From Azospirillum brasilense (GTDB taxonomy: Bacteria > Pseudomonadota > Alphaproteobacteria > Azospirillales > Azospirillaceae), in contig NZ_CP032348.1 in assembly GCF_005222205.1 (NCBI RefSeq), forward strand, positions 461,001 through 525,000: a DNA stretch of 64,000 bases, given 5' to 3'. How positions within the stretch are numbered: the stretch's first letter is position 1; the number at the start of each line of letters is the position of its first letter. Positions 2,418 to 15,643 of the stretch are shown here, one piece after another. Position numbers and translations under genes: made by a program. The notes beneath the pieces are model-generated. The model searched no databases and was not told where the DNA came from. It saw only the letters and a program-made list of their open reading frames with translations.

Positions 2418-3197
2418 TCAGCGACGCTGCAGCGACATGGTGTAGCGGAAACCGGCGCCCGGATGGGTGTTGACGGCGATCTCGACAAGACGCCCGTCGT
2501 CGGTGAAATAGCGCCGGGTGATGACGAGGATCGGCGACTGCGGCGGCACATGCAGGCGCGAGGCGACGTTCAGGCTGGCCGGGGCGGCCTCGATGTCCTG
2601 CATCACCTCGGCGATGCGGACGCCGTAGCGCTGCTCCAGCACCGTGTAGATGGCGTACTGCACCACCTCCAGGTTGCGCACCACGTCGGAGAAGGCGGCG
2701 TCGATGTAGACCTCGACGTAGGAGAAGGGCTCCGACGTCTCGCGGGTACGGCGCAGCGCGCTGACGCGGAACCACTGCGTGTCCGGGCGGCAGCCCAGCC
2801 GCCCGGCCAGCTCCTCCTCCACGATGATGCGGTCCACCGAGAGGATTTCCAGCCGGGTCGAGGTGGCGTACTGCACCAGCTCGTCCAGGGAGCTGATGGA
2901 ATTGACGAAACGCCCGTCGGCGCGGCGCGCCGCCAGGACCGAACCCGATCCCTGGCGGCGCAGGATGTAGCCCATCTCCTGAAGCCGGCGCAGCGCCTCG
3001 CGCACCGTGTGGCGGCTGACGGCGAAGCGGCTGCACAGCTCCTGCTCGGTCGGCAGGCGGTCGCCGACGGCGTAGGCTCCGGCGTCGATCTCCTCCAGCA
3101 GGCTGCGGACGATCTCCTGGTAGAGCGGGGTCTCCCCCCGCTCCGCCGCGCCGTCCGTGCCGCTGGTTTCCTTCAGGCTGTCCGCTTCTTCCGACAT
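2418..3197 (-). CDS. GntR-family regulator with UTRA ligand domain (paralogue 1)
   Basis: A 259-residue HutC-subfamily regulator. The N-terminal winged helix (about residues 25-95) contains GDRLPTEQELCSRFAVSR and the recognition helix HTVREALRRLQEMG. The C-terminal UTRA domain senses a small metabolite. The start at 3197 is preferred because GAGG lies 6 bases upstream; the Met four codons earlier has no ribosome site. It is the last gene behind dctM, 85 bases downstream, and is a close paralogue of the regulator at 6880-7644, with almost the same recognition helix. It probably controls the TRAP/amidase genes or the whole island. Confidence 0.88.
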   Translation of the reverse strand: MSEEADSLKETSGTDGAAERGETPLYQEIVRSLLEEIDAGAYAVGDRLPTEQELCSRFAVSRHTVREALRRLQEMGYILRRQGSGSVLAARRADGRFVNSISSLDELVQYATSTRLEILSVDRIIVEEELAGRLGCRPDTQWFRVSALRRTRETSEPFSYVEVYIDAAFSDVVRNLEVVQYAIYTVLEQRYGVRIAEVMQDIEAAPASLNVASRLHVPPQSPILVITRRYFTDDGRLVEIAVNTHPGAGFRYTMSLQRR

Positions 3198-3282
3198 CGC
3201 ATCCCTCATGATGCCGGAAGATGGACGAGGCGGGGCGCCGATGCAACCGGCGTACGAGGATGATCCGCGTGGGACCGTCCGC

Positions 3283-4554
3283 TTACGTCAGCAGGACCAG
3301 CGACAGGACCGGGAAAGCGTTGATGACGACCAGCGCGACCACCCGCATCCCATAGAAGGGCAGCACGCCCCGCACGATGGAATGGAGCGGCATCTTGGTG
3401 ATACGGCTCATCACGAACAGGTTCAGGCCGACCGGCGGCGTCAGGGTCGCCACCTCCACCAGCGCGGTCATGATCACGGCGAAGTGGATCGGGTTCACCC
3501 CCACCGCCTGCGCCATCGGGAACAGGATTGGCGCCAGCAGCACGATCATCGACACGCCGTCCAGGAACATGCCGATGACGAGCAGCAGCAGGTTGACCGC
3601 CAGCAGGAATTCGAAGGGGGAGACCTGCGCCTCCTTCAGCATCGCGGTCAGCTCGGCGGACAGGCCGAGGCGGGTCAGCACCGCGGTCAGCAGGCCGGAG
3701 CCGAGCAGCACGCCGTAGATCATCACGGTCTGGAGAACCGACTCCCGCGCCGTTTCCCACACCGCGGCGAGATTGGCGGTGCGGTAGACCAGCGTCACCA
3801 GCACCACCGCGTAGATGGCGGCCAGCGCCGACACCTCGGTCGGGGTGAACCAGCCCATGTAGATCGTGCCGATGATGAGCACCGGCATCATCAGCGCCCC
3901 GGCGGCACCCGGCAGGCGTTGGCCGAAGCCCTTCCAGTCCGGACGCTCGCCGACATGACCGTAGCCCTTGAGCCGGCTGACGATCAGCGTGGTGAGGCCA
4001 AGCAGGAACGCCTCGAACAGGCCGGGCACGATGCCGGCGATGAACAGGTCGGTGATCGGCAGGCCAACGATGGAGCCGATCAGGATGAAGGTCAGCGACG
4101 GCGGGATCATCAGCCCGAGCGTGCCGCAGACCGCCACCAGCGACGCGGCGAAGCGGGGCGGGTAGCCCTCGTTCGGCATCAGCTTCACCGCCGCCGGGCC
4201 GAGCGCCACGGCGCAGGCCACCGACGAGCCGTTGACCGCCGCGAAGAACACGCTGGACATGGCCAGAGCCAGGGCGATGCCGCCGCGGAAGTAGCGGATG
4301 ATCGTCCCGACCAGCTCCAGGATGACCAGCGCGAGGTTGCCGCGGGACATCAGGTTGCCGGCGAAGATGAAGAACGGGATGCAGACCAGCGCGTACTTGT
4401 CCACGGAATCCCAAGCCATCTGCGCGACCAGGACGACCGGGATGTTGAAGTTGAAGGTCAGCAGGCCGACCGCGATGACGCCCAGCGCCAGAGCGATGTG
4501 AACGCCCGCGGCCACGAAGAACAGCAGGCTGACGACGGCGACGATGGTGGTCAT
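3283..4554 (-). CDS. dctM: TRAP transporter large permease, DctM/SiaM family
   Basis: A 423-residue inner-membrane protein with about a dozen hydrophobic segments, the ion-coupled translocation subunit of a tripartite ATP-independent periplasmic (TRAP) transporter. Family features include the early FIFAGNLMSRGNLALVILEL segment, MSSVFFAAVNGSSVACAVALG, and the C-terminal ALVEVATLTPPVGLNLFVM stretch that closely follows the DctM consensus. The ribosome site GGAGG is 7 bases before the ATG. It follows dctQ by 29 bases. TRAP systems carry carboxylates, which fits the acid-degrading genes nearby. No dctP gene adjoins it. Confidence 0.94.
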   Translation of the reverse strand: MTTIVAVVSLLFFVAAGVHIALALGVIAVGLLTFNFNIPVVLVAQMAWDSVDKYALVCIPFFIFAGNLMSRGNLALVILELVGTIIRYFRGGIALALAMSSVFFAAVNGSSVACAVALGPAAVKLMPNEGYPPRFAASLVAVCGTLGLMIPPSLTFILIGSIVGLPITDLFIAGIVPGLFEAFLLGLTTLIVSRLKGYGHVGERPDWKGFGQRLPGAAGALMMPVLIIGTIYMGWFTPTEVSALAAIYAVVLVTLVYRTANLAAVWETARESVLQTVMIYGVLLGSGLLTAVLTRLGLSAELTAMLKEAQVSPFEFLLAVNLLLLVIGMFLDGVSMIVLLAPILFPMAQAVGVNPIHFAVIMTALVEVATLTPPVGLNLFVMSRITKMPLHSIVRGVLPFYGMRVVALVVINAFPVLSLVLLT

Positions 4555-4583: not shown

Positions 4584-5195
4584 TCAGAGATTCTCGCCCT
4601 CGACGGGCGGATCGGGGTCGTGGCCGCGCAGCAGCAGGATGATGTTGCCGACAAAGGCGAAGCCGTAGAGCACCCCGCCCAGCGGCAGCACAAGCCGGAC
4701 CGTCCACAGCGGCAGGTCGAGATTGGACTCCGTGAACATGCCGATGGCCTGGAGATGCGCGACCTCCTGGAATCCGGCGATCACCAGAAGCACGCTGAAG
4801 GCCAGCCCGATCAGGCTGTTCAGCCAGGCGAAGGCCATCCGCACCCGGTGCGGCATCATGTTCAGCAGCAGGTCCATGCGGATGTAATGGCCGTGCCGCG
4901 TGCCGACGCCCAGCGACAGGAGCACGCTCCACACCACCAGGAAGCGGACCAGTTCCTCCGCCCACCAGTGGCTTTCCGACAGGAGGGAGCGGCTGGACGC
5001 CTCGTAGAACATGAAGCCGATGGCCGCCATCATCAGGATCGTGGCGACGTTCAGGAGGATGCGGTCCTCAATGAAGCTCCACCAGCCCGGCAGGCCGCGG
5101 CCCGGCGACGAGGCGGCTTCCGCCGCGGGCGACGTCGCCTGGGTGTGCGGGGCCGCGGAAGTCGCCGCGGACGTCAATGTATCGGTTCCCGGCAT
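4584..5195 (-). CDS. dctQ: TRAP transporter small permease, DctQ family
   Basis: A 203-residue small subunit with four hydrophobic helices after a polar, Ala/Ser-rich N-terminal tail of about 40 residues. The DctQ signature is seen in WWAEELVRFLVVWSVLLSLG and GTRHGHYIRMDLLLNMMP. The start at 5195 has AAGGGAG 8 bases upstream. It begins 14 bases after the amidase stop and precedes dctM, so amidase, dctQ and dctM look co-transcribed. The N-terminal tail is longer than usual for this family. Confidence 0.9.
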   Translation of the reverse strand: MPGTDTLTSAATSAAPHTQATSPAAEAASSPGRGLPGWWSFIEDRILLNVATILMMAAIGFMFYEASSRSLLSESHWWAEELVRFLVVWSVLLSLGVGTRHGHYIRMDLLLNMMPHRVRMAFAWLNSLIGLAFSVLLVIAGFQEVAHLQAIGMFTESNLDLPLWTVRLVLPLGGVLYGFAFVGNIILLLRGHDPDPPVEGENL

Positions 5196-5209: not shown

Positions 5210-6598
5210 TCACGAGAAGACCTGAGTCTGGGGGACGCGGCTCAGCCAGCCGGTGGCGCGCTCGTAGGCGTCGGCGATGCGCAGCAGCGTGGCTTCCGAC
5301 CGCGGGCGGCCGATGAGCTGCAGGGCGATGGGCATGCCGTCCGGATCGAAGCCGGCGGGCGTGACGAGCGCCGGCAGGCCGAGGTAGGAGACCGGGCGAG
5401 TCAGCGCCGCCACCCCGGCGACCACCGCGGCCATCGCCGGCCCGGCCCCCACGTCGGTCTGGGCGGCGGTCGGAACGCGGCTGCGCAGGGCTGGGACGAA
5501 CAGCGCGTCGCAATGGGCGAAGGGGCCGTCGATCATCGCCCGGAGATGAAGCGCGCGAAGCTGCTTCGCCTGGAGGTAGGAGGCCGCCGGCACCATCAGC
5601 CCCTGCAGAAGCCGCGCGCGGACCTGCGGGCCGTAGTCCTGCGGGCGCTCGCGCAGCCAGGGCGCGTGGACGGCCGCCGCCTCCGGCGTGAAGACGAGGT
5701 TGGCGAGGTCGCCGTAGGGCGCGTGGTCGGGGATGTCCACGTCGACGACGCGGGCGCCGGCGCGCTCCAGCACCGCCCGCGCCCGCTCCAGCGCGGCGGC
5801 AACGGCAGGGTCCAGGCCGTCGTAGTAGAATTGACGCGGGATGCCCAGCCGCAACCCTTCGACTCCCTGGCCGATGCCGTCCACGGCGTCCGTCCGCCCG
5901 GTGATCACCGAGAACAGCGTCGCCGCGTCCTCCGCGCTGCGGGCCAGCGGGCCGACACAGTCCAGGCTTTCCGACAGCGGCATCACGCCGTCCATCGGCG
6001 TCGCCCCCTGCGTCGGCTTCAGCCCGACCACGCCGCACAGCGCCGCCGGAAGCCGCACCGACCCGCCGGTGTCCGAGCCCAGCGAGCCGAAGGCCAGCCG
6101 CCCCGCCACCGCCGCCCCGGAGCCGGAGGAGGAACCGCCGGTGATGCGGTCGGGGTCCCAGGGGTTGCGGCAGCGACCGAGATGGGCGTTGTGCCCGGTC
6201 GGCCCCATGGCGAATTCCGCCATGTGCAGCGTGCCGAGGGTCACCGCTCCCGCCGCGTCCAGCCGCTCCAGCACCGTGGCCGTCCGCTCCGGGTGGAAGC
6301 CGCCGCGGATCGTCGGGGAACCGCAGGTGCAGCGCTTGCCGGCGCGGTAGAACATGTCCTTGTGGGCCAGCGGCACGCCGTGCAGCGCCCCGCGCGGCCG
6401 TCCGGCGCGGGCCTCCGCATCTGCGGTGCGGGCGGCGGCCAGCGCCTCCTCCGGCTCGACCGACAGGAAGGCGTTGAGCGTCGGGTTCAGCCGGGCGATG
6501 CGGTCTAGGCAGGCGTCGGCCAGGGCCTCCGCCCGCAGCGCGCCGTCGCGGACCGCCCTTGCGGCCTCCGTCAGGGTCAGCGATGTGGGATCGGTCAT
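5210..6598 (-). CDS. Amidase signature-family hydrolase (AtzE/GatA-like)
   Basis: A 462-residue Ser-cisSer-Lys hydrolase. The catalytic lysine is in GVPLAHKDMFYRAGKRC, and the cis-Ser/Ser pair in GGSSSGSGAAVAGRLAFGSLG followed by TGGSVRLPAALCG. The C-terminal PALVTPAGFDPDGMPIALQL is characteristic. It cleaves an amide or imide bond; substrate unknown. The ATG overlaps the stop of the preceding small gene by four bases, an arrangement like atzG-atzE, whose product is a heterotetrameric amidase. The dctQM genes follow, so the pair may handle an imported amide. A second, distinct amidase lies at 42988-44328. Confidence 0.9.
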   Translation of the reverse strand: MTDPTSLTLTEAARAVRDGALRAEALADACLDRIARLNPTLNAFLSVEPEEALAAARTADAEARAGRPRGALHGVPLAHKDMFYRAGKRCTCGSPTIRGGFHPERTATVLERLDAAGAVTLGTLHMAEFAMGPTGHNAHLGRCRNPWDPDRITGGSSSGSGAAVAGRLAFGSLGSDTGGSVRLPAALCGVVGLKPTQGATPMDGVMPLSESLDCVGPLARSAEDAATLFSVITGRTDAVDGIGQGVEGLRLGIPRQFYYDGLDPAVAAALERARAVLERAGARVVDVDIPDHAPYGDLANLVFTPEAAAVHAPWLRERPQDYGPQVRARLLQGLMVPAASYLQAKQLRALHLRAMIDGPFAHCDALFVPALRSRVPTAAQTDVGAGPAMAAVVAGVAALTRPVSYLGLPALVTPAGFDPDGMPIALQLIGRPRSEATLLRIADAYERATGWLSRVPQTQVFS

Positions 6599-6879: not shown

Positions 6880-7644
6880 TTACCCGGATCGTTGCAGCGT
6901 CATTTCATAACGGTATCGTCCGGCCGCGTGGCTGCTGACCGCCACCTCCAGCGCGTTTCCTTCGGCGTCCAGATAATGGCGGATCACCACCAGGATCGGG
7001 GTGCCGACCTCCACCGACAGGCGGGACGCGAGATTGGCGTCGGCCGAGGTGGCCTCGATCGACTGCACGACCTCCTCGATGCGCAGGCCGTAGCGGCTTT
7101 CCAGCACCGCGTAGACGGCGACCGGAAAGGTGCCGATGGCCTGGGCCACGTCGTCGAAGGCGGCGGGCAGGAACACCTCGGTGTAGCAGAGCGGGGTCCG
7201 CTCCCCCGGCTGGCGGCGCAGCGCCACCACCCGGACCCAGGGCGTGTCCGGCTGCGAGCGCAGAAGCTCCGCCGTCCGCCCCTCCACCAGGATCTTCTCC
7301 ACCGCCAGCACCTCCAGCCGGGTGGAGGAGGCGTACTGCCCGATCTCCGCAAGGCTGGACAGCGTGTTGTGGAACCGCCCGTCGGGGCGGGCGGCGGTCA
7401 CCACCGACCCCGAGCCCTGACGGCGCGCGATCAGGCCGAGATCCTGGAGCCGGCGCAGCGCCTCCCGCACCGTGTAGCGGCTGGCGGAAAAGCGCAGGCA
7501 CAGCTCCTGCTCGGTCGGCAGCCGTTCGCCGACCCCGACCCGCCCGTCCGAGATGTCGGCGCGCAGCGCGTCCAGGATCTCCTGGAAGCGCGGCCCCTCC
7601 GCGGCGGACGGGCGGACGGAGGCCGGGCGAACGGCGGCTTTCAC
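6880..7644 (-). CDS. GntR-family regulator with UTRA ligand domain (paralogue 2)
   Basis: A 254-residue HutC-type regulator. The winged helix includes GERLPTEQELCLRFSASR followed by YTVREALRRLQDLG, and the UTRA domain ends in GRYRYEMTLQRSG. It is recognisably a duplicate of the regulator at 2418-3197, with matching motifs along the whole length. Translation starts at a GTG whose bases overlap the CoA-transferase stop (GTGA), so it is coupled to the CoA-degradation operon that it probably controls. Its near-identical recognition helix predicts that both paralogues read the same operator. Confidence 0.9.
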   Translation of the reverse strand: MKAAVRPASVRPSAAEGPRFQEILDALRADISDGRVGVGERLPTEQELCLRFSASRYTVREALRRLQDLGLIARRQGSGSVVTAARPDGRFHNTLSSLAEIGQYASSTRLEVLAVEKILVEGRTAELLRSQPDTPWVRVVALRRQPGERTPLCYTEVFLPAAFDDVAQAIGTFPVAVYAVLESRYGLRIEEVVQSIEATSADANLASRLSVEVGTPILVVIRHYLDAEGNALEVAVSSHAAGRYRYEMTLQRSG

Positions 7645-8846
7645 AGCGCCCCCTGCTCGCGCAGGGCGGCGATGCGCTCCGGCCCGATGCCGATGCGGCC
7701 CAGCACGTCCTCGGTGTCGGCGCCCAGCGCCGGGGCGGGGCGGGTGGGAAGGCGCTCGCCGCCGATGCGCACCGGTCCGGTCAGCATCCGCACCTTACCC
7801 GTTCCGTCTGGGGCCGACCCGTCCGGGTAGGAGAAGTCGGCCACCCGGTCGCTCTCGCTGACGAAGGGGTTCTCCAGCGATTGGGCAATGTCGAGGACCG
7901 GGGCGGCGGGAACGGCGCCGCCGAGGATCTCCACCCACTCCGCCGTGTCGCGCTGGCCGAGCACCTCGTCCAGCAGGACGGTGAGCAGCTCGCGGTTGGC
8001 CAGCCGGTCCTTGAAGCTGCGGAAGCGCGGGTCGTCCCCCCATTCCGGCTTGCCGATCTTGTCGCAGAAGACCGGCCAGAACTTTTCCTTGTTGCACATG
8101 ACGAACAGCCAGCCGTCGCGCGTCCGGTAGAGCTGCGACGGGGTCAGGGAGGGGTGCGCGGAGCGCGGCTCCCGCCCCTGGTTGTGGCCGCCGTTGAGGT
8201 ACCAGGTGGCGAGGTAGGTCATGTTGTGCAGCGCCGTGTCGAACAGGCTGACGTCCACGTCCGAACCCTTGCCGCTGGCCCGCGCCCCGACCACGCCGGA
8301 GACGAGGCCGAAGGCGGTCATCAGGCCGGTCATCATGTCGACCACCGACATGCCGAAGCGGGCGGGCGGCCCGTCCGGCTCGCCGGTCACCGACAGGTAG
8401 CCGGCCTCCGCCTGCATCAGATAGTCGTAGCCCGGCCAGGCCCGCCGCGGCCCCGTGCGCCCGTAGGCGGACAGGTGGGCGCAGACGATCTTGGGGTTGA
8501 CCGCCTTCAGATGCTCGTAGGTCAGGCCCAGCTTGTCCGGCAGGTCGCCGCGCAGGTTGTCCAGCACGGCGTCGGCGTGGCGCACCAGCTCGTGCAGCAC
8601 CGCCATGCCCTCGGGGTGCTTCAGGTTGAGGGTGATGCTGCGCTTGTTGCGGTTGAAGGACTGGTAGAAGTGGCTGTTGCCGGGGCCGAAGAAATGGGGG
8701 CCGACATGCCGGCCGACCTCGCCGCCTTCGGCGGGATTCTCGACCTTGATGACTTCGGCCCCGAGATCGGCCAGCAGCATGGTGCCGAACGGGCCGGCGC
8801 CGTATTGCTCCACGGCGATGACGGTGACGCCTTCGAGGGGTAGCAC
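7641..8846 (-). CDS. CaiB/BaiF (family III) CoA-transferase, probable itaconate CoA-transferase
   Basis: A 401-residue family III CoA-transferase. The nucleophilic aspartate is Asp170 in FGMSVVDMMTG, matching Asp169 of formyl-CoA transferase. The N-terminal VTVIAVEQYGAGPFGTMLLADLGAEVIKVE is the family opening, quoted here in part as AGPFGTMLLADLGAEVIKVE. The GTG start at 8846 has AGGGAG 7 bases upstream. Together with the MaoC hydratase and CitE lyase it fits the Ict step, which moves CoA from succinyl-CoA to itaconate. Transfer to mesaconate or citramalate is a real alternative. It is the fourth gene of the maoC operon, followed by gntR with an overlap. Confidence 0.85.
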   Translation of the reverse strand: MLPLEGVTVIAVEQYGAGPFGTMLLADLGAEVIKVENPAEGGEVGRHVGPHFFGPGNSHFYQSFNRNKRSITLNLKHPEGMAVLHELVRHADAVLDNLRGDLPDKLGLTYEHLKAVNPKIVCAHLSAYGRTGPRRAWPGYDYLMQAEAGYLSVTGEPDGPPARFGMSVVDMMTGLMTAFGLVSGVVGARASGKGSDVDVSLFDTALHNMTYLATWYLNGGHNQGREPRSAHPSLTPSQLYRTRDGWLFVMCNKEKFWPVFCDKIGKPEWGDDPRFRSFKDRLANRELLTVLLDEVLGQRDTAEWVEILGGAVPAAPVLDIAQSLENPFVSESDRVADFSYPDGSAPDGTGKVRMLTGPVRIGGERLPTRPAPALGADTEDVLGRIGIGPERIAALREQGAL

Positions 8847-8895
8847 GCGGTGTCTCCCTGATGGGGGTGTGCGGGGTGTGTGGGGAGTGGTTGCA

Positions 8896-8985
8896 CTTGC
8901 CCCCCTCCCGGCCTCCCCCCGCTGCGCACGGGGAGGAGAGAAGTCCCCTCCCCTGCGTCAGCGGGGGAGGGTTAGGGTGGGGGCC
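8896..8985. repeat. Intergenic GC-rich palindromic repeat, copy A
   Basis: About 90 bases between the CoA-transferase and acyl-CoA dehydrogenase genes are made of C-tracts and G-tracts that can fold on themselves. The block CCCCTCCCCTGCG, then GCGGGGGAGGGTTAGGG, is repeated almost exactly at 31847-31887. Both copies also start with CTTGCCCCCC. It looks like a REP/BIME-type element; no transposase is nearby. Confidence 0.7.
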
Positions 8986-9003
8986 CGTCGCGACCACCCA
9001 TCC

Positions 9004-10182
9004 TCACACCGGATTCTGCTCGATCAGCCGCTTGGCGATGATGATGCGCTGGATCTCGTTGGTGCCCTCGCCGATGCACAGCAGGGGGGCGTCGCGGTAG
9101 AGCCGCTCGACCACGAACTCCTTGGAGTAGCCGTAGCCGCCATGGATGCGCATGGCGTCCAGGGAGTTCTCCACCGCCGCTTCGGAGGCGAAGAGCTTGG
9201 CCATGCCGGCCTCGTAGTCGCAGCGCTCGCCGCGGTCGAGCGCCTTGGCCGCCTGCTGCACGAGAAGCCGCGCCGCGGAGACGCGGGTCGCCATGTCGGC
9301 CAGCTTCATCGCCACGGCCTGATGCTCGTGGATCGGCTTGCCGAAGGTCTTGCGCTGCTGGCTGTACTTCACGGATTCGTCCAGCGCCGCCTGGGCGACG
9401 CCGACGCCGCGCGCCGCCACGTTGACCCGGCCCAGCTCCAGGCCGGAGATGGCGCAGGCCATGCCGCGGCCCTCGACCCCGCCGATCAGCCGGTCGGCCG
9501 GGACGCGGTAGTCCTCGAAGACCAGCTCGGCGGAATCGATGCCCTTGTAGCCCAGCTTCTCCAGCTTGCGGCTGACCTTGAAGCCCGGCCCCTTCTCGGC
9601 CAGGAACATCGTCATGCCCTTGTGGCGGGGCTGTGCCGTCGGGTCGGTCTTGACCAGCAGGGCGAAGCAGCTTCCCTGGATGCCGTTGGTGATCCAGGTC
9701 TTCGAGCCGTTGATGACGTAATCGTCGCCGTCGCGCTTGGCCACCGTGCGGATGGCCTGCAGGTCGGTGCCGCAGTCCGGCTCCGTCAGAGCGAGGCCAC
9801 CGCGCAGCTCGCCGGTGGCGAAGCGCGGCAGGAAGGCGGCCTTCTGCTCCTCCGTCCCGGTCTTGGTGACGATGAAGGCCATGATGAGGTGCGAGTTGAT
9901 GATGCCGGACAGCGACATCCACACCGACGAGATGCGCTCGATCATCTTGGCGTAGGTGGAGGGGCGCAGACCGAGCCCGCCGTATTCCTCGGGGATCGTC
10001 GCCCCGAACAGGCCCAGCTCCTTCATCCGCTCGACGATCTCGTCGGGGTAGGCGTCGTCATGCTCCAGCTTCAGGGCGACCGGCCGGACATGGCGGTCGA
10101 GGAAGCGGTCCACGCTGTCGAGGATCAGGCGCTCCTGCTCGTCGCGTTCCGCGTCGGTCATGCTGGTGGTGGTGTCGCTCAT
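9004..10182 (-). CDS. Acyl-CoA dehydrogenase
   Basis: A 392-residue FAD flavoprotein of full family length. It shows the ALTEPDCGTDLQAIRT signature that contacts FAD and substrate, and the C-terminal IGEGTNEIQRIIIAKRLI with catalytic Glu372 in the usual late position. It oxidises a short or branched acyl-CoA at C2-C3 and passes electrons to ETF. Its place between the MmgE/PrpD and CoA-transferase genes matches the dehydrogenase carried in pseudomonad itaconate clusters, where its exact role is unclear. GGGAAA lies before the ATG. Confidence 0.93.
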   Translation of the reverse strand: MSDTTTSMTDAERDEQERLILDSVDRFLDRHVRPVALKLEHDDAYPDEIVERMKELGLFGATIPEEYGGLGLRPSTYAKMIERISSVWMSLSGIINSHLIMAFIVTKTGTEEQKAAFLPRFATGELRGGLALTEPDCGTDLQAIRTVAKRDGDDYVINGSKTWITNGIQGSCFALLVKTDPTAQPRHKGMTMFLAEKGPGFKVSRKLEKLGYKGIDSAELVFEDYRVPADRLIGGVEGRGMACAISGLELGRVNVAARGVGVAQAALDESVKYSQQRKTFGKPIHEHQAVAMKLADMATRVSAARLLVQQAAKALDRGERCDYEAGMAKLFASEAAVENSLDAMRIHGGYGYSKEFVVERLYRDAPLLCIGEGTNEIQRIIIAKRLIEQNPV

Positions 10183-10205
10183 GGCGTGTTTCCCGGAATG
10201 GATGG

Positions 10206-11612
10206 TCAGCGGACGGACGGCGACAGGACGGACAGCGAGTCCGCCGCGCGCGGGCTGGCGTCGAGGCCGAGGACGGCGTCGGCGATGCGCGCCGCGGCGG
10301 TCTCGTTCACGGTCATGGCGGCGTTGCCGCGGTACTTGTCCACGATCTCGGCGTTGGACAGCGGGCGGTCGGCGGCGCCGCGGTTGATGTGCTCGCGGTG
10401 GCGCAGCTCCCGCCCGTCGTCGAGCGTGATGACCAGCTCGCCCGAATAGGCCTTGGGGAAGGGCGAGTCCGGATCGTGGCGGTAGGACACCTTCGACGCG
10501 ATGTCGAGGATCGCCGCGTCGCCCAGCGCGTCATTCTCCAGCTCCGCCAGGGTCAGGCGCCCGCGCACCAGCGCTGCGGCGACCAGGAAGGGCACGCTGA
10601 ACTGCGCGTCGTAGGAGTTGGACGGCCGCTTCTTGTTGGCCTCCGGCTCGCAGACGGTCTTGACCACCTGCTCGGGCACCAGCGCCTCGATGCGGCGGAT
10701 GCGCGCGGTGTCGAGGCCGTCGCGGCGCAGCTCCAGGGCGGCGTCGACGCAGGCGTGGGTGAAGTGGCAGGCCGGGTAGGGCTTGATCGCCGTCGCCATC
10801 AGCTCCCACGTCTCGCCGAGGCCGGCGGTGGCGATGCCGAGTTCCGCGCGACCGGCCTCCTTGCCGAGATAGGCGTTGAACAGGCCGAAGCGGCCCTCGT
10901 AGGGGCGGGTGACGCCGGTGAAGCCCTCGCGGGCCAGCGCCGCCGCGGTGATGCCCGCCGCCGCCGCCCAGCCGGGATGCAGGCGCTTGTTCCAGGCGCC
11001 GTCCTCCAGGAACTCCAGGCTGCCGCTCGCCATCGACAGGGCGATGCCCTGGGCGGCGGCGAGCTGCGCGCGGGTCAGGCCGAGCAGCCGGCCGGCGGCC
11101 AGCGCGCAGCCGAACACGCCGATCATGCCCGTCGGGTGGAAGCCCACCTGGTGGAAGCCGCCGCGCGCCACCGCGCCGAGCCGGGCCGCCACCTCGACGC
11201 CCAGCACATAGGCGCTGACCACGGAACGGCCGTCCGCCCCGGTCATCGCCGCCGCCGACAGCACGGCGGGCATCACGCTGGCGGTCGGGTGGATGACGCC
11301 GCCGATGTGGGTGTCGTCGTAGTCGAGGCCGTGGCAGAGCAGCCCGTTGACCGTCGCCGCGTCGCGGGCGGGCAGCGCCGCGGGCATGCCGATCACCGGC
11401 ACCGGCCCCTCCCCCGCCAGCCCGCGCAGCGCGGTCAGCGTCTTGTGGGCGAAGTCGTAGCGCGTCGAGGCGAGCGCGATGCCCACGGCGTCCAGCATGT
11501 GGTGCGGCGCGCGGGTGCGGACCTCCGCCGGGATGGCGTCGTCGGGGGTGTCGGCGACGAAGGCCGCCAGCGTGGCGGCGATGGATTCCATGGTCGGATC
11601 GGTGGCGGGCAT
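10206..11612 (-). CDS. MmgE/PrpD family protein
   Basis: A 468-residue member of the family that holds 2-methylcitrate dehydratase (PrpD), cis-aconitate decarboxylase (which makes itaconate) and iminodisuccinate epimerase. The central LCHGLDYDDTHIGGVIHPTA carries the conserved active-site Asp/His cluster, and KPYPACHFTHACVDAALELR is the other family signature. GGAGG stands 4-5 bases before the ATG. The fold and context point to a branched C5-C7 di- or tricarboxylate, but the exact reaction cannot be decided by eye. It is cotranscribed with the acyl-CoA dehydrogenase (23-base gap). Confidence 0.9.
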   Translation of the reverse strand: MPATDPTMESIAATLAAFVADTPDDAIPAEVRTRAPHHMLDAVGIALASTRYDFAHKTLTALRGLAGEGPVPVIGMPAALPARDAATVNGLLCHGLDYDDTHIGGVIHPTASVMPAVLSAAAMTGADGRSVVSAYVLGVEVAARLGAVARGGFHQVGFHPTGMIGVFGCALAAGRLLGLTRAQLAAAQGIALSMASGSLEFLEDGAWNKRLHPGWAAAAGITAAALAREGFTGVTRPYEGRFGLFNAYLGKEAGRAELGIATAGLGETWELMATAIKPYPACHFTHACVDAALELRRDGLDTARIRRIEALVPEQVVKTVCEPEANKKRPSNSYDAQFSVPFLVAAALVRGRLTLAELENDALGDAAILDIASKVSYRHDPDSPFPKAYSGELVITLDDGRELRHREHINRGAADRPLSNAEIVDKYRGNAAMTVNETAAARIADAVLGLDASPRAADSLSVLSPSVR

Positions 11613-11659
11613 GGTTCCTCCCTCTTGTTCTTCTCGGGCTATCTGTTCGTCTGGGATTG

Positions 11660-11687
11660 TCCGGATCAGTCGCTCCGGATCAGTCGC
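11660..11687. repeat. Perfect 14-bp tandem duplication over the maoC stop
   Basis: TCCGGATCAGTCGC occurs twice in a row. The second copy contains the maoC stop codon and the first is its echo just downstream, so the gene end appears to have been duplicated by slippage. Confidence 0.85.
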
Positions 11688-12177
11688 CGATGCCGTGGCC
11701 CCGCTTGGGGACGAGGCTGGCCCGTTCGAAGGTCAGGAAGACCGTGCCGTCGGCCTTGTAGCCCTCGGTGTAGGTGGTCACGATGCCCTGGGTCGGGCGC
11801 TTCTTGGATTCGCGCACGTCCAGCACCTTGGAGCGCGCGTAGATCGTATCGCCGGGGAAGACCGGGGCGACCAACTTGATCTCCTTCCAGCCCAGGTTGG
11901 CGACCGACTTGTAGGAGACGTCGTCCACCGTCATGCCCAGAACCATGGCCAGCGTCAGCCCGCTGTTGACCAGCGGTTTGCCGAACTCCGACTTCTCGGC
12001 GAAGGCGTGGTCGCAGTGCATGGGGTGGCGGTTCATCGTCAGCAGGCTGAACTGGATGTTGTCCGCTTCGGTGATGGTCCGGCCGGGGCGGTGCTCGTAG
12101 ACATCGCCGACGGTGAAATCCTCAAGGTAGCGGCCAAGGTCGGCGACGATGGTCCGCGGTTCCTGAACATCGGGCAT
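11680..12177 (-). CDS. MaoC-like hot-dog hydratase, probable itaconyl-CoA hydratase
   Basis: A 165-residue single hot-dog-fold protein. The segment NRHPMHCDHAFAEKSEFGKP, then LVNSGLTLAMV, aligns with the hydratase-2 motif: Pro and the final His are kept, but the usual Asp and Asn are Asn and His. Start at 12177 gives a compact domain; an upstream Met at 12231 would add a basic tail lying over the operator region. Paired with a CaiB transferase and a CitE lyase it fits Ich, hydrating itaconyl-CoA to citramalyl-CoA. Mesaconyl-CoA hydration is the alternative. It is the first gene of the minus-strand operon. Confidence 0.85.
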   Translation of the reverse strand: MPDVQEPRTIVADLGRYLEDFTVGDVYEHRPGRTITEADNIQFSLLTMNRHPMHCDHAFAEKSEFGKPLVNSGLTLAMVLGMTVDDVSYKSVANLGWKEIKLVAPVFPGDTIYARSKVLDVRESKKRPTQGIVTTYTEGYKADGTVFLTFERASLVPKRGHGIGD

Positions 12178-12266
12178 GGGCGGGCGTCTCTTGTCTGCGG
12201 ATCGGAGGGGTGAGTGCGGGGCGCCGATCATTTCAAGGTGACATGTTCAGCGCGTGTGATAGCATG

Positions 12267-12278
12267 TTGTACGTACAA
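12267..12278. promoter_or_regulatory. GntR-type operator candidate between maoC and citE
   Basis: TTGTACGTACAA is a perfect 12-base palindrome in the 135-base gap between the divergent maoC and citE genes. GntR-family operators typically have GT and AC half-sites a few bases apart. It matches 11 of 12 bases with a site upstream of dctP at 14512-14523. Confidence 0.6.
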
Positions 12279-12312
12279 ATAACACGCCACCTCACCCTTG
12301 GAAAGCGTTTTC

Positions 12313-13209
12313 ATGCCCAACAACCCGCAAGCCCCAGCAACGGCGCCGGAATCGCCGGCCCGCCGCTCCTACCTGTTCGTTCCCGGTGCCCGTCCCGACC
12401 GTTTCGGCAAGGCCCTGGGGGCCGGCGCCGACGCGGTCATCATCGATCTGGAGGACGCGGTGGCCCCCGGCGACAAGGACAGCGCCCGCGCCGCCGTCTG
12501 CGCCTTCCTGCGGGAACACGACGGCGCGGGCGGGCCGGCGGTTTTCGTTCGAACCAATTCGCTGCGCAGCCGCACCGGCCTGCTCGACATCCTCGCCCTG
12601 ACGGATCTGCCGGACGGCGCGGCGCCGCGCTGGGCGGGAATCCTGCTGCCGAAGGTGGATGGGGCCGAGGATGTCCGGCTGGCTGCCGGACTTCTCGACG
12701 AGCGCAATCTCCCCGGCGCGCTCGGCGCGCTGATCGAGAGCGCCGACGGGCTGGAGAACGTTATGGCGATCGCCGCGGCCTCCCCCCGCCTGTCCTTCCT
12801 GATGTTCGGCGGGGCCGACCTGTCGGCGGAACTGCGCGTGCCGCTGTCCTGGGAGCCGCTGGTCCAGGCCCGCACCCGCATCGTGCACGCCGCTGCCCGA
12901 TTCGGGCTGGACGCGCTGGACATGCCGTGGATCGCGCTGGACGACGAGGAGGGCTACCGGCGGGAGCTGGCGCGCAGCGTCCTCCACGGCTTCACCGCGC
13001 GCTCAGCCATCCACCCCAAGCAGATCACCGCCATCCACGACGCCTACACCCCGTCGCCGGAGGCGGTTCTCCGCGCCGGACGGGTCCTGGCCGCCTTCGA
13101 GGCCGCGGGCGGCGGGGTCTGCGTGCTGGACGGCAAGCTGGTCGAACGCCCCCTGGTGCTGGGGTCCCATCGAATCCTGGCATTGGCCCGCCGCGCCGGA
13201 ATGCTGTAG
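12313..13209 (+). CDS. HpcH/HpaI-CitE family lyase, probable citramalyl-CoA lyase
   Basis: A 298-residue TIM-barrel lyase of the CitE type. Motifs are SYLFVPGARPDRFGKALGAG, the acidic metal-binding VIIDLEDAVAPGDKDSAR, VRTNSLRSRTG, and ESADGLENVMAIAAASPR followed by FGGADLSAEL. It splits a 3-hydroxy-acyl-CoA; with the transferase and MaoC neighbours the likely reaction is citramalyl-CoA to acetyl-CoA plus pyruvate. Malyl-CoA-type activity is possible. The ATG at 12313 has GGAAAG 7 bases upstream. It is divergent from maoC across a palindrome and leads into the MFS gene. Confidence 0.88.
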   Translation: MPNNPQAPATAPESPARRSYLFVPGARPDRFGKALGAGADAVIIDLEDAVAPGDKDSARAAVCAFLREHDGAGGPAVFVRTNSLRSRTGLLDILALTDLPDGAAPRWAGILLPKVDGAEDVRLAAGLLDERNLPGALGALIESADGLENVMAIAAASPRLSFLMFGGADLSAELRVPLSWEPLVQARTRIVHAAARFGLDALDMPWIALDDEEGYRRELARSVLHGFTARSAIHPKQITAIHDAYTPSPEAVLRAGRVLAAFEAAGGGVCVLDGKLVERPLVLGSHRILALARRAGML

Positions 13210-13278: not shown

Positions 13279-14481
13279 ATGACCACGCAAGAAACCCCGC
13301 CCGCCCCCTTTCCCCTGCTGCTGGCGGAGGTGACCAGCGTTCAGACCGTCGCCACCCTGTCGGTCCTGACGCTGGCGACGGTCGCCCCGCTGGCCGCCGC
13401 CTCGCTGGGGGTCGGGTCGGAGGCGGTCGGCTACCAGATCAGCGTCATCTACAGCGCCGCCGCGCTGGTGTCCGCCTTCGCCGGTCTGGTGGTCCGCCGC
13501 TGGGGCGCCGGCACGGTGGGTGTCCTGGCGCTGGGGCTGGGGCTGGTGGGCTGCCTGGGCCTCGCCACCGGCTCCCTGTGGGTGGCGGCGCTGGCGTCGG
13601 TGCTGCTCGGCATCGGCTACGGGCTGGTGAACCCCTCCTCCTCCCACCTGCTGAACCGCTTCACCCCGCCGGCGCGGCGCAATCTGGTCTTCTCGCTGAA
13701 GCAGACCGGTGTGCCGCTGGCCGGCGTGCTGGCCGGGCTGACCCTGCCGGGAATCGGCGAGATCGCCGGCTGGCGCGGGGCGGCGCTGGCGGTGGCCGCC
13801 ATGTTCGCGCTGCTGCTGGTCCTCTTCGCGCCGGGCCGCCGGGTGTGGGACGACGACCGCAGCCCCGGCCTACCGATCCGCGGCAACCTGATGGAGGGGC
13901 CGCGGCTGGTCTGGCGGGTGCCGGCGCTGCGCGGCTTCGCCCTGATGGGCTTCTTCTTCTCGGCGATCCAGCTGTCGCTGATGGCCTTCACGGTGAACAT
14001 GCTGGTGCACGACCTGCACTGGTCCATCGTGTCGGCCGGGCTGGCCGTGTCGGTCATGCAGGCGGCGGGGGCGGCGGCGCGCATCGGCTGGGGGCTTCTG
14101 GCCGACCGGCTGCGCTCCGGCGTGGCGGTGCTGGGCGGCATCGGCGGGCTGTCCGCCGCCTCCGCCCTGGCCACCGCCGGGCTGGGGCCGAGCTGGCCGG
14201 TGCCCGCGGTGATCGGCGTGCTGACGGTGTTCGGCGTCGCCGCCATCGGCTGGAACGGCGTGTTCCTGGCGGAGGTGGCGCGGGTCGCCCCGAAGGGCAC
14301 GGCCAGCACGGCGACCGGCGGCGCGCTGATGTTCACCTTCTCCGGCGTGGTCGTCGGGCCGGCGCTGTTCGCCACCCTGTTCAACGCGGTCGGCAGCTAC
14401 GGCGAGACCTTCGCCCTGATGATGGCTTTCCCGCTGGCCGGGGCGGCGGCCGTCCTGTTCTGGTCGCGCCGCAAAACTTGA
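13279..14481 (+). CDS. MFS transporter
   Basis: A 400-residue major facilitator with about twelve hydrophobic segments. The family hints are the loop LNRFTPPARRNLVFSLKQTG in the N-half and ARIGWGLLADRLRSG, the A-like motif between helices 8 and 9. AAGG stands 4 bases before the ATG. It starts 69 bases after citE and probably shares its promoter, so import of the acid degraded by the island (or export of a product) is a fair guess. The substrate is not visible in the sequence. Confidence 0.88.
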   Translation: MTTQETPPAPFPLLLAEVTSVQTVATLSVLTLATVAPLAAASLGVGSEAVGYQISVIYSAAALVSAFAGLVVRRWGAGTVGVLALGLGLVGCLGLATGSLWVAALASVLLGIGYGLVNPSSSHLLNRFTPPARRNLVFSLKQTGVPLAGVLAGLTLPGIGEIAGWRGAALAVAAMFALLLVLFAPGRRVWDDDRSPGLPIRGNLMEGPRLVWRVPALRGFALMGFFFSAIQLSLMAFTVNMLVHDLHWSIVSAGLAVSVMQAAGAAARIGWGLLADRLRSGVAVLGGIGGLSAASALATAGLGPSWPVPAVIGVLTVFGVAAIGWNGVFLAEVARVAPKGTASTATGGALMFTFSGVVVGPALFATLFNAVGSYGETFALMMAFPLAGAAAVLFWSRRKT

Positions 14482-14511: not shown

Positions 14512-14523
14512 TTGTCCGTACAA
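14512..14523. promoter_or_regulatory. GntR-type operator candidate upstream of dctP, site 1
   Basis: TTGTCCGTACAA differs by one base from the palindrome between maoC and citE (12267-12278), and both are followed by an AT-rich triplet run. It lies 89 bases before the dctP start. Confidence 0.55.
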
Positions 14524-14557: not shown

Positions 14558-14569
14558 TCGTTCGGACAA
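14558..14569. promoter_or_regulatory. GntR-type operator candidate upstream of dctP, site 2
   Basis: On the minus strand this reads TTGTCCGAACGA, matching site 1 at 10 of 12 positions. Centre spacing to site 1 is 46 bases, a distance that would let two dimers bracket a promoter. Weaker than site 1. Confidence 0.4.
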
Positions 14570-14611
14570 GCGGGCCAGAAGCGTCCGAACGCAGCAATGG
14601 GAGGGAAGCCA

Positions 14612-15643
14612 ATGTTCAATCCGTCACTCTTCAGGCCATTCTGGGCGAAGACGCTGCTGGTCGGCATGACCGTGGCCGGGCTGGCCGCCGGGACGTCGGG
14701 CCAGGCCCGCGCGCAGGCGGCGCCGGTCGAGATGGTGATGACGGACGAGATCGCGACGTCCCACTGGACCGCCAAGATGATGGACGAGTATGCGGCCCTC
14801 ATCGAAGAACGTTCGAAGGGCCGCATCAAGCCGAAGGTCTTCCACTCCGGCACGCTCTACAAGGACAAGGACGCCGTCGCCGCCCTCGGGTCGGGCGCCG
14901 TGCACATGGTCTGGCCGGTCAGCGTGCAGCTTGAGAGCATCGCCCCGCAGTACGGCGTGGTGAACCTGCCCTTCGCCGTCACCGATGCCGCGATGTCCAA
15001 GCCGGAAACCGCGCAGGAAGTGTCCAAGCTGCTGTCCGGGCTGGTGGCCGACAAGGGTATCCGCGTCATGGGGCTGATGCGCACCGCCGACCTGATCTTC
15101 CTGTTCAAGGACAAGGAGGTCGACTCCGTCGGCGACCTGAAGGGCAGCAAGATCCGCCTGACCGGCGGCCGCGTCCTGCAGCTTCTGATGCGCGACTTCG
15201 GGGCCAGCCCGGTGTCGATGCCCGCCTCCGAAATGGCGGCGGCGCTGATGCAGGGCGCCATCGACGGCATCTACACCTCCGCCGGCGGCTGGGAGATGGT
15301 CGGCACCAACGCCGCCAAGGTCGCCTCGCTGATACCGGGCATGAGCCTGCTCACCTACTCCGTCCTGGTCGACGACAAGTGGATGAAGGGCCTGCCCGAC
15401 GATCTGCGCCAGGTGGTGGAGACGACCACCAACGAGATCATCGCCAAGCAGTGGCAGCGCGCCATCGACGCCGACAAGAAGACCATGGATCAGATGATCG
15501 CCCAGGGCGGGCGGCTGGCCGTGGCTCCCGAGGCGGAGCAGGCGAAGTTCCGCGAGATCGCCAACAAGGTCAACCAGGACTACGTCCGGCGCTACCCTGA
15601 GGTCTGGAAGCAGTATCAGGCCATCGTCGGCGACAAGAGCTGA
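14612..15643 (+). CDS. dctP: TRAP transporter solute-binding protein, DctP family
   Basis: A 343-residue periplasmic binding protein. A signal peptide covers roughly residues 1-36, ending at GQARAQA. The DctP core includes MDEYAALIEERSKGRIKPKV, the GAVHMVWPVS strand and DLKGSKIRLTGGRVLQLLM, where Arg in the KIR motif normally salt-bridges a carboxylate ligand. The start at 14612 has GGGAGG upstream. It stands alone as a plus-strand gene, 10 kb from dctQM; sharing an operator with citE argues that it serves the same regulon and may be the missing binding subunit. Confidence 0.93.
   Translation: MFNPSLFRPFWAKTLLVGMTVAGLAAGTSGQARAQAAPVEMVMTDEIATSHWTAKMMDEYAALIEERSKGRIKPKVFHSGTLYKDKDAVAALGSGAVHMVWPVSVQLESIAPQYGVVNLPFAVTDAAMSKPETAQEVSKLLSGLVADKGIRVMGLMRTADLIFLFKDKEVDSVGDLKGSKIRLTGGRVLQLLMRDFGASPVSMPASEMAAALMQGAIDGIYTSAGGWEMVGTNAAKVASLIPGMSLLTYSVLVDDKWMKGLPDDLRQVVETTTNEIIAKQWQRAIDADKKTMDQMIAQGGRLAVAPEAEQAKFREIANKVNQDYVRRYPEVWKQYQAIVGDKS

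Follow-up and report, generated by a model that had tools for sequence, protein, structure and literature searches.

A conserved gene cluster of Azospirillum brasilense that looks like a parallel assembly of a pathway for 2-substituted succinates

The window analyzed here is a stretch of 64,000 nucleotides from Azospirillum brasilense (NCBI RefSeq assembly GCF_005222205.1, contig NZ_CP032348.1, positions 461,001 to 525,000 of the forward strand), part of a genome of 7.2 Mb in six contigs. It carries a cluster of genes for a CaiB-type CoA-transferase, an acyl-CoA dehydrogenase (ACAD), an MmgE/PrpD protein, a MaoC hydratase, and a CitE-type lyase, along with regulators, transporters, and an amidase, as listed below by window position. 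On balance, we favor the view that GntR controls these genes as a catabolic regulon and that its substrate is a 2-substituted succinate. (R,S)-Methylsuccinate is the most likely such acid, and itaconate and/or citramalate may be degraded as well. The cluster looks like a parallel assembly of such a pathway, drawn largely from other enzyme lineages than the ict-ich-ccl/mcd/msi genes of Pseudomonas aeruginosa. A preliminary description had placed it at 7641-13209; the core enzymes do lie there, but the cluster is larger, extending in one direction to two GntR regulators, DctM/DctQ, and an amidase and in the other to a major facilitator superfamily (MFS) transporter and DctP.

2418..3209, minus strand: GntR/UTRA regulator GntR2 (Pfam GntR and UTRA)
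3283..4554, minus strand: large permease DctM of a tripartite ATP-independent periplasmic (TRAP) transporter (Pfam DctM; adjoins the cluster in some relatives)
4584..5186, minus strand: TRAP small permease DctQ (Pfam DctQ; start set from the RefSeq length in Azospirillum argentinense)
5210..6598, minus strand: amidase-signature enzyme, AtzE-like (Pfam Amidase; NCBIfam match under the cut-off)
6880..7644, minus strand: GntR/UTRA regulator GntR1 (Pfam; its open reading frame (ORF) overlaps the CaiB stop by 4 nt)
7641..8846, minus strand: CaiB family III CoA-transferase (Pfam CoA_transf_3, 386 bits; RefSeq-type start near 8831)
9004..10182, minus strand: ACAD (Pfam; proposed catalytic Glu372 in a GEGTNEI motif)
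10206..11612, minus strand: MmgE/PrpD protein, proposed 2-substituted-succinate epimerase (Pfam MmgE_PrpD N and C; His154 at the catalytic-Tyr site)
11680..12177, minus strand: MaoC hydratase, RipB/Ich-like (Pfam MaoC/mesaconyl-CoA hydratase; ORF open to 12231, start by comparison with A. argentinense)
12267..12278, no strand: palindrome TTGTACGTACAA, proposed operator between the divergent MaoC and CitE genes, conserved
12313..13209, plus strand: CitE-type CoA ester lyase, RipC/Ccl-like (Pfam HpcH_HpaI; ORF open from 12298)
13279..14481, plus strand: MFS transporter (annotated as MFS in A. argentinense; no NCBIfam match at 1e-5)
14512..14523, no strand: palindrome TTGTCCGTACAA, a further copy of the putative operator, preceding DctP
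14597..15643, plus strand: TRAP substrate-binding protein DctP (NCBIfam TRAP_S1)

The five enzyme families named in the preliminary description were borne out at the same places by Pfam and NCBIfam. All five exceeded the Pfam gathering scores, with the N and C domains of MmgE_PrpD at 210 and 129 bits against a cut-off of 32.1, and the Asp170 said to be kept in CaiB is present, as it is in 16 of 16 aligned relatives. A near-identical cluster of A. argentinense has the same gene order, and its RefSeq starts shorten MaoC and CitE, leaving a divergent promoter region of 135 nt between them. MmgE copies 98-99% identical to the window's were found on plasmids of A. argentinense, A. brasilense, and Azospirillum sp. 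TSH58. Promoter and terminator scans gave two promoter-like and five terminator-like sites, which were not used.

The cluster was then compared with its best-known counterpart. Below, type A means window-like enzymes and type B means canonical ict/ich/ccl/mcd/msi-type enzymes. The anchor was a named P. aeruginosa record (L195) with LysR, MaoC_N, ACAD, VOC, MmgE, CaiB, CitE, and DctPQM, whose gene order agrees with the published PA0878-0886, and named Variovorax and Mesorhizobium clusters were added for scale. This record is of a conjugative megaplasmid, where the whole canonical itaconate/methylsuccinate cluster is followed by acs, possibly as a captured chromosomal stretch. The preliminary description had likened the window to the ict-ich-ccl region of P. 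aeruginosa as an itaconate cluster, a label to be corrected, since that region is a methylsuccinate cluster as much as an itaconate cluster according to section 2.2 of PMC9875883. The same paper reports that gene deletions in engineered P. putida agree with the pathway assignment in P. aeruginosa / C. necator, and PMC12599236 states that the linked TRAP transporter is required for itaconate uptake.

The window resembles the P. aeruginosa / C. necator cluster (PA0878-PA0886) in bringing the five enzyme families and a TRAP transporter together, and the proposed reaction order would be identical. The genes, however, are not orthologous. Identities to the P. aeruginosa proteins were 31% for MmgE, 33% for CaiB, 32% for ACAD, 36% for CitE, and 22% for DctP, compared to 42-81% over the five enzymes between P. 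aeruginosa and the named Variovorax and Mesorhizobium clusters. The hydratase had no significant match: against the three named Ich proteins (275-284 aa, MaoC_N type), the 183-aa window protein gave E values of 0.25 (P. aeruginosa), 0.043, and 0.009, over short stretches only. On a four-member type-B profile, the window CaiB scored 258 bits (the members' own scores were 656-801); ACAD and CitE scored 190 bits (897-912) and 151 bits (513-556) on their type-B profiles. For MmgE, the score was 200 bits on a profile made from 7 type-B proteins (819-911 for the members themselves), which is distinct from the published methylsuccinate isomerase profile with its cut-off of 550. These scores do not place CaiB with Ict, ACAD with methylsuccinyl-C4-CoA dehydrogenase (Mcd), or MmgE with methylsuccinate isomerase (Msi). 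The window has GntR where P. aeruginosa has LysR, and its MmgE lacks the catalytic Tyr. The Glu of the ACAD motif GEGTNEI is kept in type-A rows, whereas three aligned type-B rows have no Glu there. The name ict-ich-ccl was rejected after this comparison, and the window cluster looks like a functional look-alike of that cluster rather than a member, with at least four of the five enzymes from other lineages. What stands of the itaconate proposal is the set of five families and the logic of CoA transfer, desaturation, hydration, and cleavage, for which a C5-type dicarboxylate is plausible.

The closest NCBIfam models for MaoC and CitE were RipB_Ich and RipC_Ccl, which is also the likeness to the Yersinia-type ripABC system, but both fell under the equivalog cut-offs: MaoC had 190 bits against 340 (next model, 90 bits) and CitE had 229 bits against 375 (next model, 147 bits). 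The RipC cut-off was passed by 0 of 148 Pseudomonadaceae and 0 of 150 Burkholderiaceae genomes even though canonical-type clusters were among their matches, so missing the RipB and RipC cut-offs says little alone, and these models were rejected as detectors of true clusters. The window differs from ripABC in using a family III CoA-transferase, plus ACAD and MmgE. RipA belongs to another CoA-transferase family.

Rows under a length limit and a row containing a stop (L032) were left out of the trees and tables. The best solved relative of ACAD was FadE3 (4iv6, 467 bits) and that of CitE was 3qll. The best NCBIfam match of CaiB was succinate--glutarate CoA-transferase (234 bits, cut-off 750), and succinate--hydroxymethylglutarate CoA-transferase was the second-best group among its solved relatives. 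CitE-like lyases are able to cleave 3-hydroxy-3-methylglutaryl-CoA (HMG-CoA). Taken together, these points would suit a pathway for 3-methylglutarate/3-hydroxy-3-methylglutarate or a glutarate-type acid, with CaiB of the succinate-glutarate type and CitE as an HMG-CoA-type lyase. We consider this very improbable: these acids have a 1,5 backbone, while the characterized MmgE/PrpD enzymes act on 1,4-dicarboxylates, and 3-methylglutarate has no stereocenter to epimerize.

In a quick tree made without bootstrap, all 17 type-A lyases from outside Azospirillum fell into one supported clade with 4 canonical Ccl rows. Against the three named canonical Ccls, the lyases of four loci (L106, L109, L072, and L071) gave identities of 39-52%, as close as the P. 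aeruginosa Ccl comes to the other two (43-46%). The Azospirillum CitE, at 36-37% to the named Ccls, sits in another branch. A claim that it is clearly nearer to RipC was dropped; direct comparison gave a modest edge of 163 bits against 150 (L106) and 115 (P. aeruginosa), so we limit ourselves to saying that its CitE branch is different. One chimeric cluster, L071 of Pseudosulfitobacter, joins type-A MmgE (58% identity to the window), ACAD (68%), and MaoC (67%) to a CaiB with 42-51% identity to canonical Ict and 32% to the window CaiB; in the CaiB tree, this protein groups with the canonical branch. CaiB proteins of L256 and L258 (one assembly) and of L267 scored as the same type as that of L071. 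The genes next to the chimeric cluster, at 13977-19383 of L071, encode an acyl-CoA mutase, a cobalamin-dependent protein, MeaB, and a carboxyl transferase, a set like that of propionyl-CoA metabolism.

MmgE/PrpD had been thought possibly to form itaconate as a cis-aconitate decarboxylase, an idea that did not hold up well. By sequence, its nearest solved relatives were iminodisuccinate epimerase (2hp0, 145 bits) and a Bacillus subtilis protein deposited as IRG1 (7bra, 141 bits), whose status as a decarboxylase is doubted in PMC12290011; true cis-aconitate decarboxylases (IRG1/CAD) reached 120 bits. The predicted structure is confident (predicted local distance difference test score, 91), has the family fold, and matched iminodisuccinate epimerase (Z of 46.6) and cis-aconitate decarboxylase (Z of 45.3) almost equally, so the fold cannot separate the two, and neither can the residues that they share, as both enzymes have the carboxylate-binding His/Asp/Lys set that the window keeps. 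The decarboxylase was rejected as the likeliest identity on its weaker sequence match, and an itaconate-forming role for MmgE appears unlikely from these comparisons. The canonical isomerase of the methylsuccinate-type cluster has no activity on cis-aconitate.

An epimerase acting on 2-substituted succinates is suggested because the solved structure closest to MmgE in sequence is that of an epimerase and because MmgE keeps the six residues proposed for binding and activating a 1,4-dicarboxylate (His, Asp, His, His, Lys, and Lys). All six are kept in 102 of 102 type-A rows, which are not independent, since some genomes occur in two collections (L106 and L251 are 100% alike), and some come from loci without the rest of the cluster. 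In an ungapped alignment, Tyr145 of iminodisuccinate epimerase, equivalent to Tyr148 of methylsuccinate isomerase, lies opposite His154 of the window protein, as counted by hand along the printed chain. Of the two bases of the epimerase, His99 and Tyr145, the window has the His (His108) and a His in place of the Tyr; of the isomerase set Tyr148/His102/Lys202/Lys266, it keeps the His and both Lys residues. All 102 type-A rows have His at position 154 and no Tyr at either neighboring position, whereas the His-Tyr pair is found in 7 of 7 type-B MmgE rows. His154 might take over as the second base.

Sequence comparison sets the MmgE clade apart from the characterized methylsuccinate isomerase and places it in Alpha-, Beta-, and Gammaproteobacteria. 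Monophyly of type-A and type-B MmgE alone was rejected with a p value of 0.0001 in the approximately unbiased test, which also forces out close kin of type A; with all of these kin included, the rejection was weaker (0.031), and for that test four rows on long branches, one short row, and the chains of solved structures were omitted. Both wide MmgE trees were quick trees. A search of the whole genome for a close canonical isomerase found none among five matches, of which the best was the window MmgE itself (32%) and the others had 25-34% identity at lower scores. Clade members 54-96% identical to the window's were also seen under Phormidium willei (L208), a Klebsiella pneumoniae metagenome-assembled genome (L270), and Roseomonas genomospecies 6 (L203), possibly mixed or misnamed assemblies. 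A 43% relative on a Diaphorobacter plasmid (L075) lies with an LLM flavin oxidoreductase, a flavin reductase, AtuA, DUF4387, and a second MmgE/PrpD.

Related clusters were found in other bacteria. A search with the window ACAD at an E value of 1e-100 gave matches in 4 of the 148 genomes from Pseudomonadaceae and in 12 of the 150 from Burkholderiaceae. MaoC, MmgE, ACAD, CaiB, GntR, and CitE occur together in all 15 loci examined (the 4 from Pseudomonadaceae and 11 from Burkholderiaceae, with one match at 45% identity left out), and a TRAP set stands beside the cluster in all 4 Pseudomonadaceae loci. A nine-row MmgE alignment scanned over named genome contigs returned at least 466 relatives, from which the best 80 by similarity to the window MmgE were kept; as loci were picked by MmgE, clusters lacking it were not sampled. 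Their genera include Azospirillum, Skermanella, Roseovarius, Paracoccus, Stutzerimonas, Pseudomonas, Bordetella, Pandoraea, and Aromatoleum. Near MmgE, these 80 loci had ACAD in 68, MaoC in 54, type-A CaiB in 52, type-B CaiB in 5, and CitE in 36 (24 of the Ccl branch and 12 of the other branch), with all four enzymes in 34; GntR was present in 51, MFS in 47, TRAP in 30, and an amidase in 22. Among the 36 well-covered loci that remain without eight Azospirillum near-copies, ACAD was found in 32, CaiB in 26, MaoC in 23, CitE in 20, all four in 18, and an amidase in 14, so half miss at least one of the four. This recurrence goes beyond chance. Seven loci (L225, L228, L231, L234, L246, L250, and L274) have a second DctP and an amidase with the cluster, perhaps reflecting two ligands for one transporter.

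The preliminary description came close to a plain degradation of itaconate by CaiB, MaoC, and CitE, with ACAD and MmgE/PrpD as accessories. The RipB_Ich and RipC_Ccl matches agree with this, but ACAD is the commonest partner of MmgE in these loci, which were chosen by MmgE. Desaturation, a step that itaconate can do without, thus appears to be central. Plain itaconate degradation seems improbable to us.

A shared regulatory signal may link the genes. The gap separating MaoC from CitE contains a perfect palindrome, TTGTACGTACAA, and TTGTCCGTACAA is found upstream of DctP. With up to one mismatch, these are the only two places in the 64 kb, compared to a mean of 0.07 matches and a maximum of 3 in shuffles; a looser pattern picks up three more, one at 14558 with a single mismatch and two that are unrelated. 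Across 72 other related loci, the pattern TTGTNC[GA]NACAA was counted 21 times, whereas ten Markov simulations gave 1.6 on average and never more than 4. Read from the site list, 14 of the 21 stand at or just before the MaoC start, 3 at an amidase-led cluster end, 2 before CaiB, 1 before DctP, and 1 elsewhere. For the amidase-end sites, a comparison with an ORF start covers just L228, where the amidase ORF comes directly after the palindrome. Counting regions of 250 nt upstream of starts, which are those of the match and may lie inside the gene, a site was found for MaoC in 19 of 52 and for DctP in 9 of 33 (both counting eight near-copies), for CitE in 8 of 35 (all near-copies), for CaiB in 2 of 57, and for MmgE in 1 of 80. 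None was found for ACAD (0 of 68), MFS (0 of 40), DctQ (0 of 30), DctM (0 of 29), or amidase (0 of 22). The palindrome is absent from 11 canonical-type loci (three partial; about 0.18 Mb), as chance would give, which shows only that it is not shared. The palindrome TTGTNCGNACAA is a putative operator to which GntR would bind, so that enzyme and transporter genes would form a single regulon. Neither this cluster type nor a GntR/TTGTNCGNACAA regulon was found described in searches of open-licence literature.

In the pathway that we propose, TRAP and MFS transporters would take up the acid, which the amidase may free from an amide. MmgE/PrpD would epimerize C2 of the free 1,4-dicarboxylate and CaiB would place CoA on the distal carboxyl. 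ACAD would then desaturate the product to an enoyl-CoA of the mesaconyl-C4-CoA type, MaoC would hydrate this to a 3-hydroxyacyl-CoA of the citramalyl-CoA type, and CitE would cleave it to acetyl-CoA and a 2-oxoacid, pyruvate in the case of the methyl compound. The same chemistry as in the canonical cluster is suggested because the same five families recur with transporters and GntR across Alpha-, Beta-, and Gammaproteobacteria, because the type-A lyases outside Azospirillum group with canonical citramalyl-CoA lyases, because the L071 chimera joins type-A enzymes with a canonical-branch CaiB, and because MmgE retains the six residues proposed for 1,4-dicarboxylates. A regulon for a 2-substituted succinate is further supported by the closest NCBIfam models of MaoC and CitE, the palindromes at MaoC/CitE and DctP with their enrichment in related loci, and the lack of a close canonical isomerase among the genome matches. 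Methylsuccinate is most likely the substrate in the sense of being the most economical choice. Methyl-branched rings could yield it via 3-methyladipate; literature on that route was sought, and the matches were to clinical metabolomics only.

Several findings weigh against this proposal. The invariant His at position 154, the separate branch of the Azospirillum CitE, and the shortfall of MaoC and CitE under the RipB and RipC cut-offs are three of them. CitE was found in only 36 of the 80 loci and MaoC in 54, compared to ACAD in 68, partly from short contigs. The recurrent amidase and the low identity of DctP to the canonical binding protein fit a substrate other than free methylsuccinate. Two kinds of monooxygenase, called Baeyer-Villiger-type from their sequence, lie near MmgE in 8 of the 80 loci (L212, L214, L226, L227, L235, L239, L245, and L248). 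There, ACAD is present in 6, MaoC and CitE were undetected, and CaiB was seen once, weakly (36%, L248).

The amidase, the distinct DctP, the missing Tyr, and the monooxygenases leave room for a different or precursor-linked branched diacid. Here the chemistry would be the same, but the 2-substituted succinate would carry a non-methyl side chain, would enter the cell as an amide or come from a ring, and would yield acetyl-CoA and the matching 2-oxoacid. An MmgE that scores far under the methylsuccinate isomerase, and the amidase ORF right after the palindrome in L228, speak for this as well. On the other side, canonical citramalyl-CoA-type lyases, and in a few loci canonical-branch CoA-transferases, work beside type-A enzymes. 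We regard a non-methyl substrate as a somewhat doubtful alternative to methylsuccinate.

Outside the cluster, the window carries arsenic resistance genes at 421-2410 (ArsR, arsenate reductase, and ACR3 efflux, by the annotation of the A. argentinense copy).

The enzyme families are ordinary ones, but this is a real, conserved cluster type. Tentatively, the MmgE/PrpD clade could represent a new enzyme for 2-substituted succinates, an epimerase or another enzyme of enolate chemistry, in which His154 does the work of the catalytic Tyr. It would belong to a GntR/TTGTNCGNACAA regulon whose substrate, a branched diacid bound as an amide or derived from a ring, would end up as acetyl-CoA and a 2-oxoacid. 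The regulon would then have converged on the itaconate/methylsuccinate pathway, possibly for a substrate that is not known to be broken down by such a route. Two convergently evolved variants of itaconate breakdown are reported in PMC12290011. If our reading is true, a third assembly, in rhizosphere Azospirillum and other soil and marine proteobacteria, would widen the range of degraders, annotation by family name alone could mis-assign such clusters, and the MmgE/PrpD family would gain a member in which another residue transfers the proton. In finding the true substrate, the amidase and the conserved palindrome offer concrete starting points.

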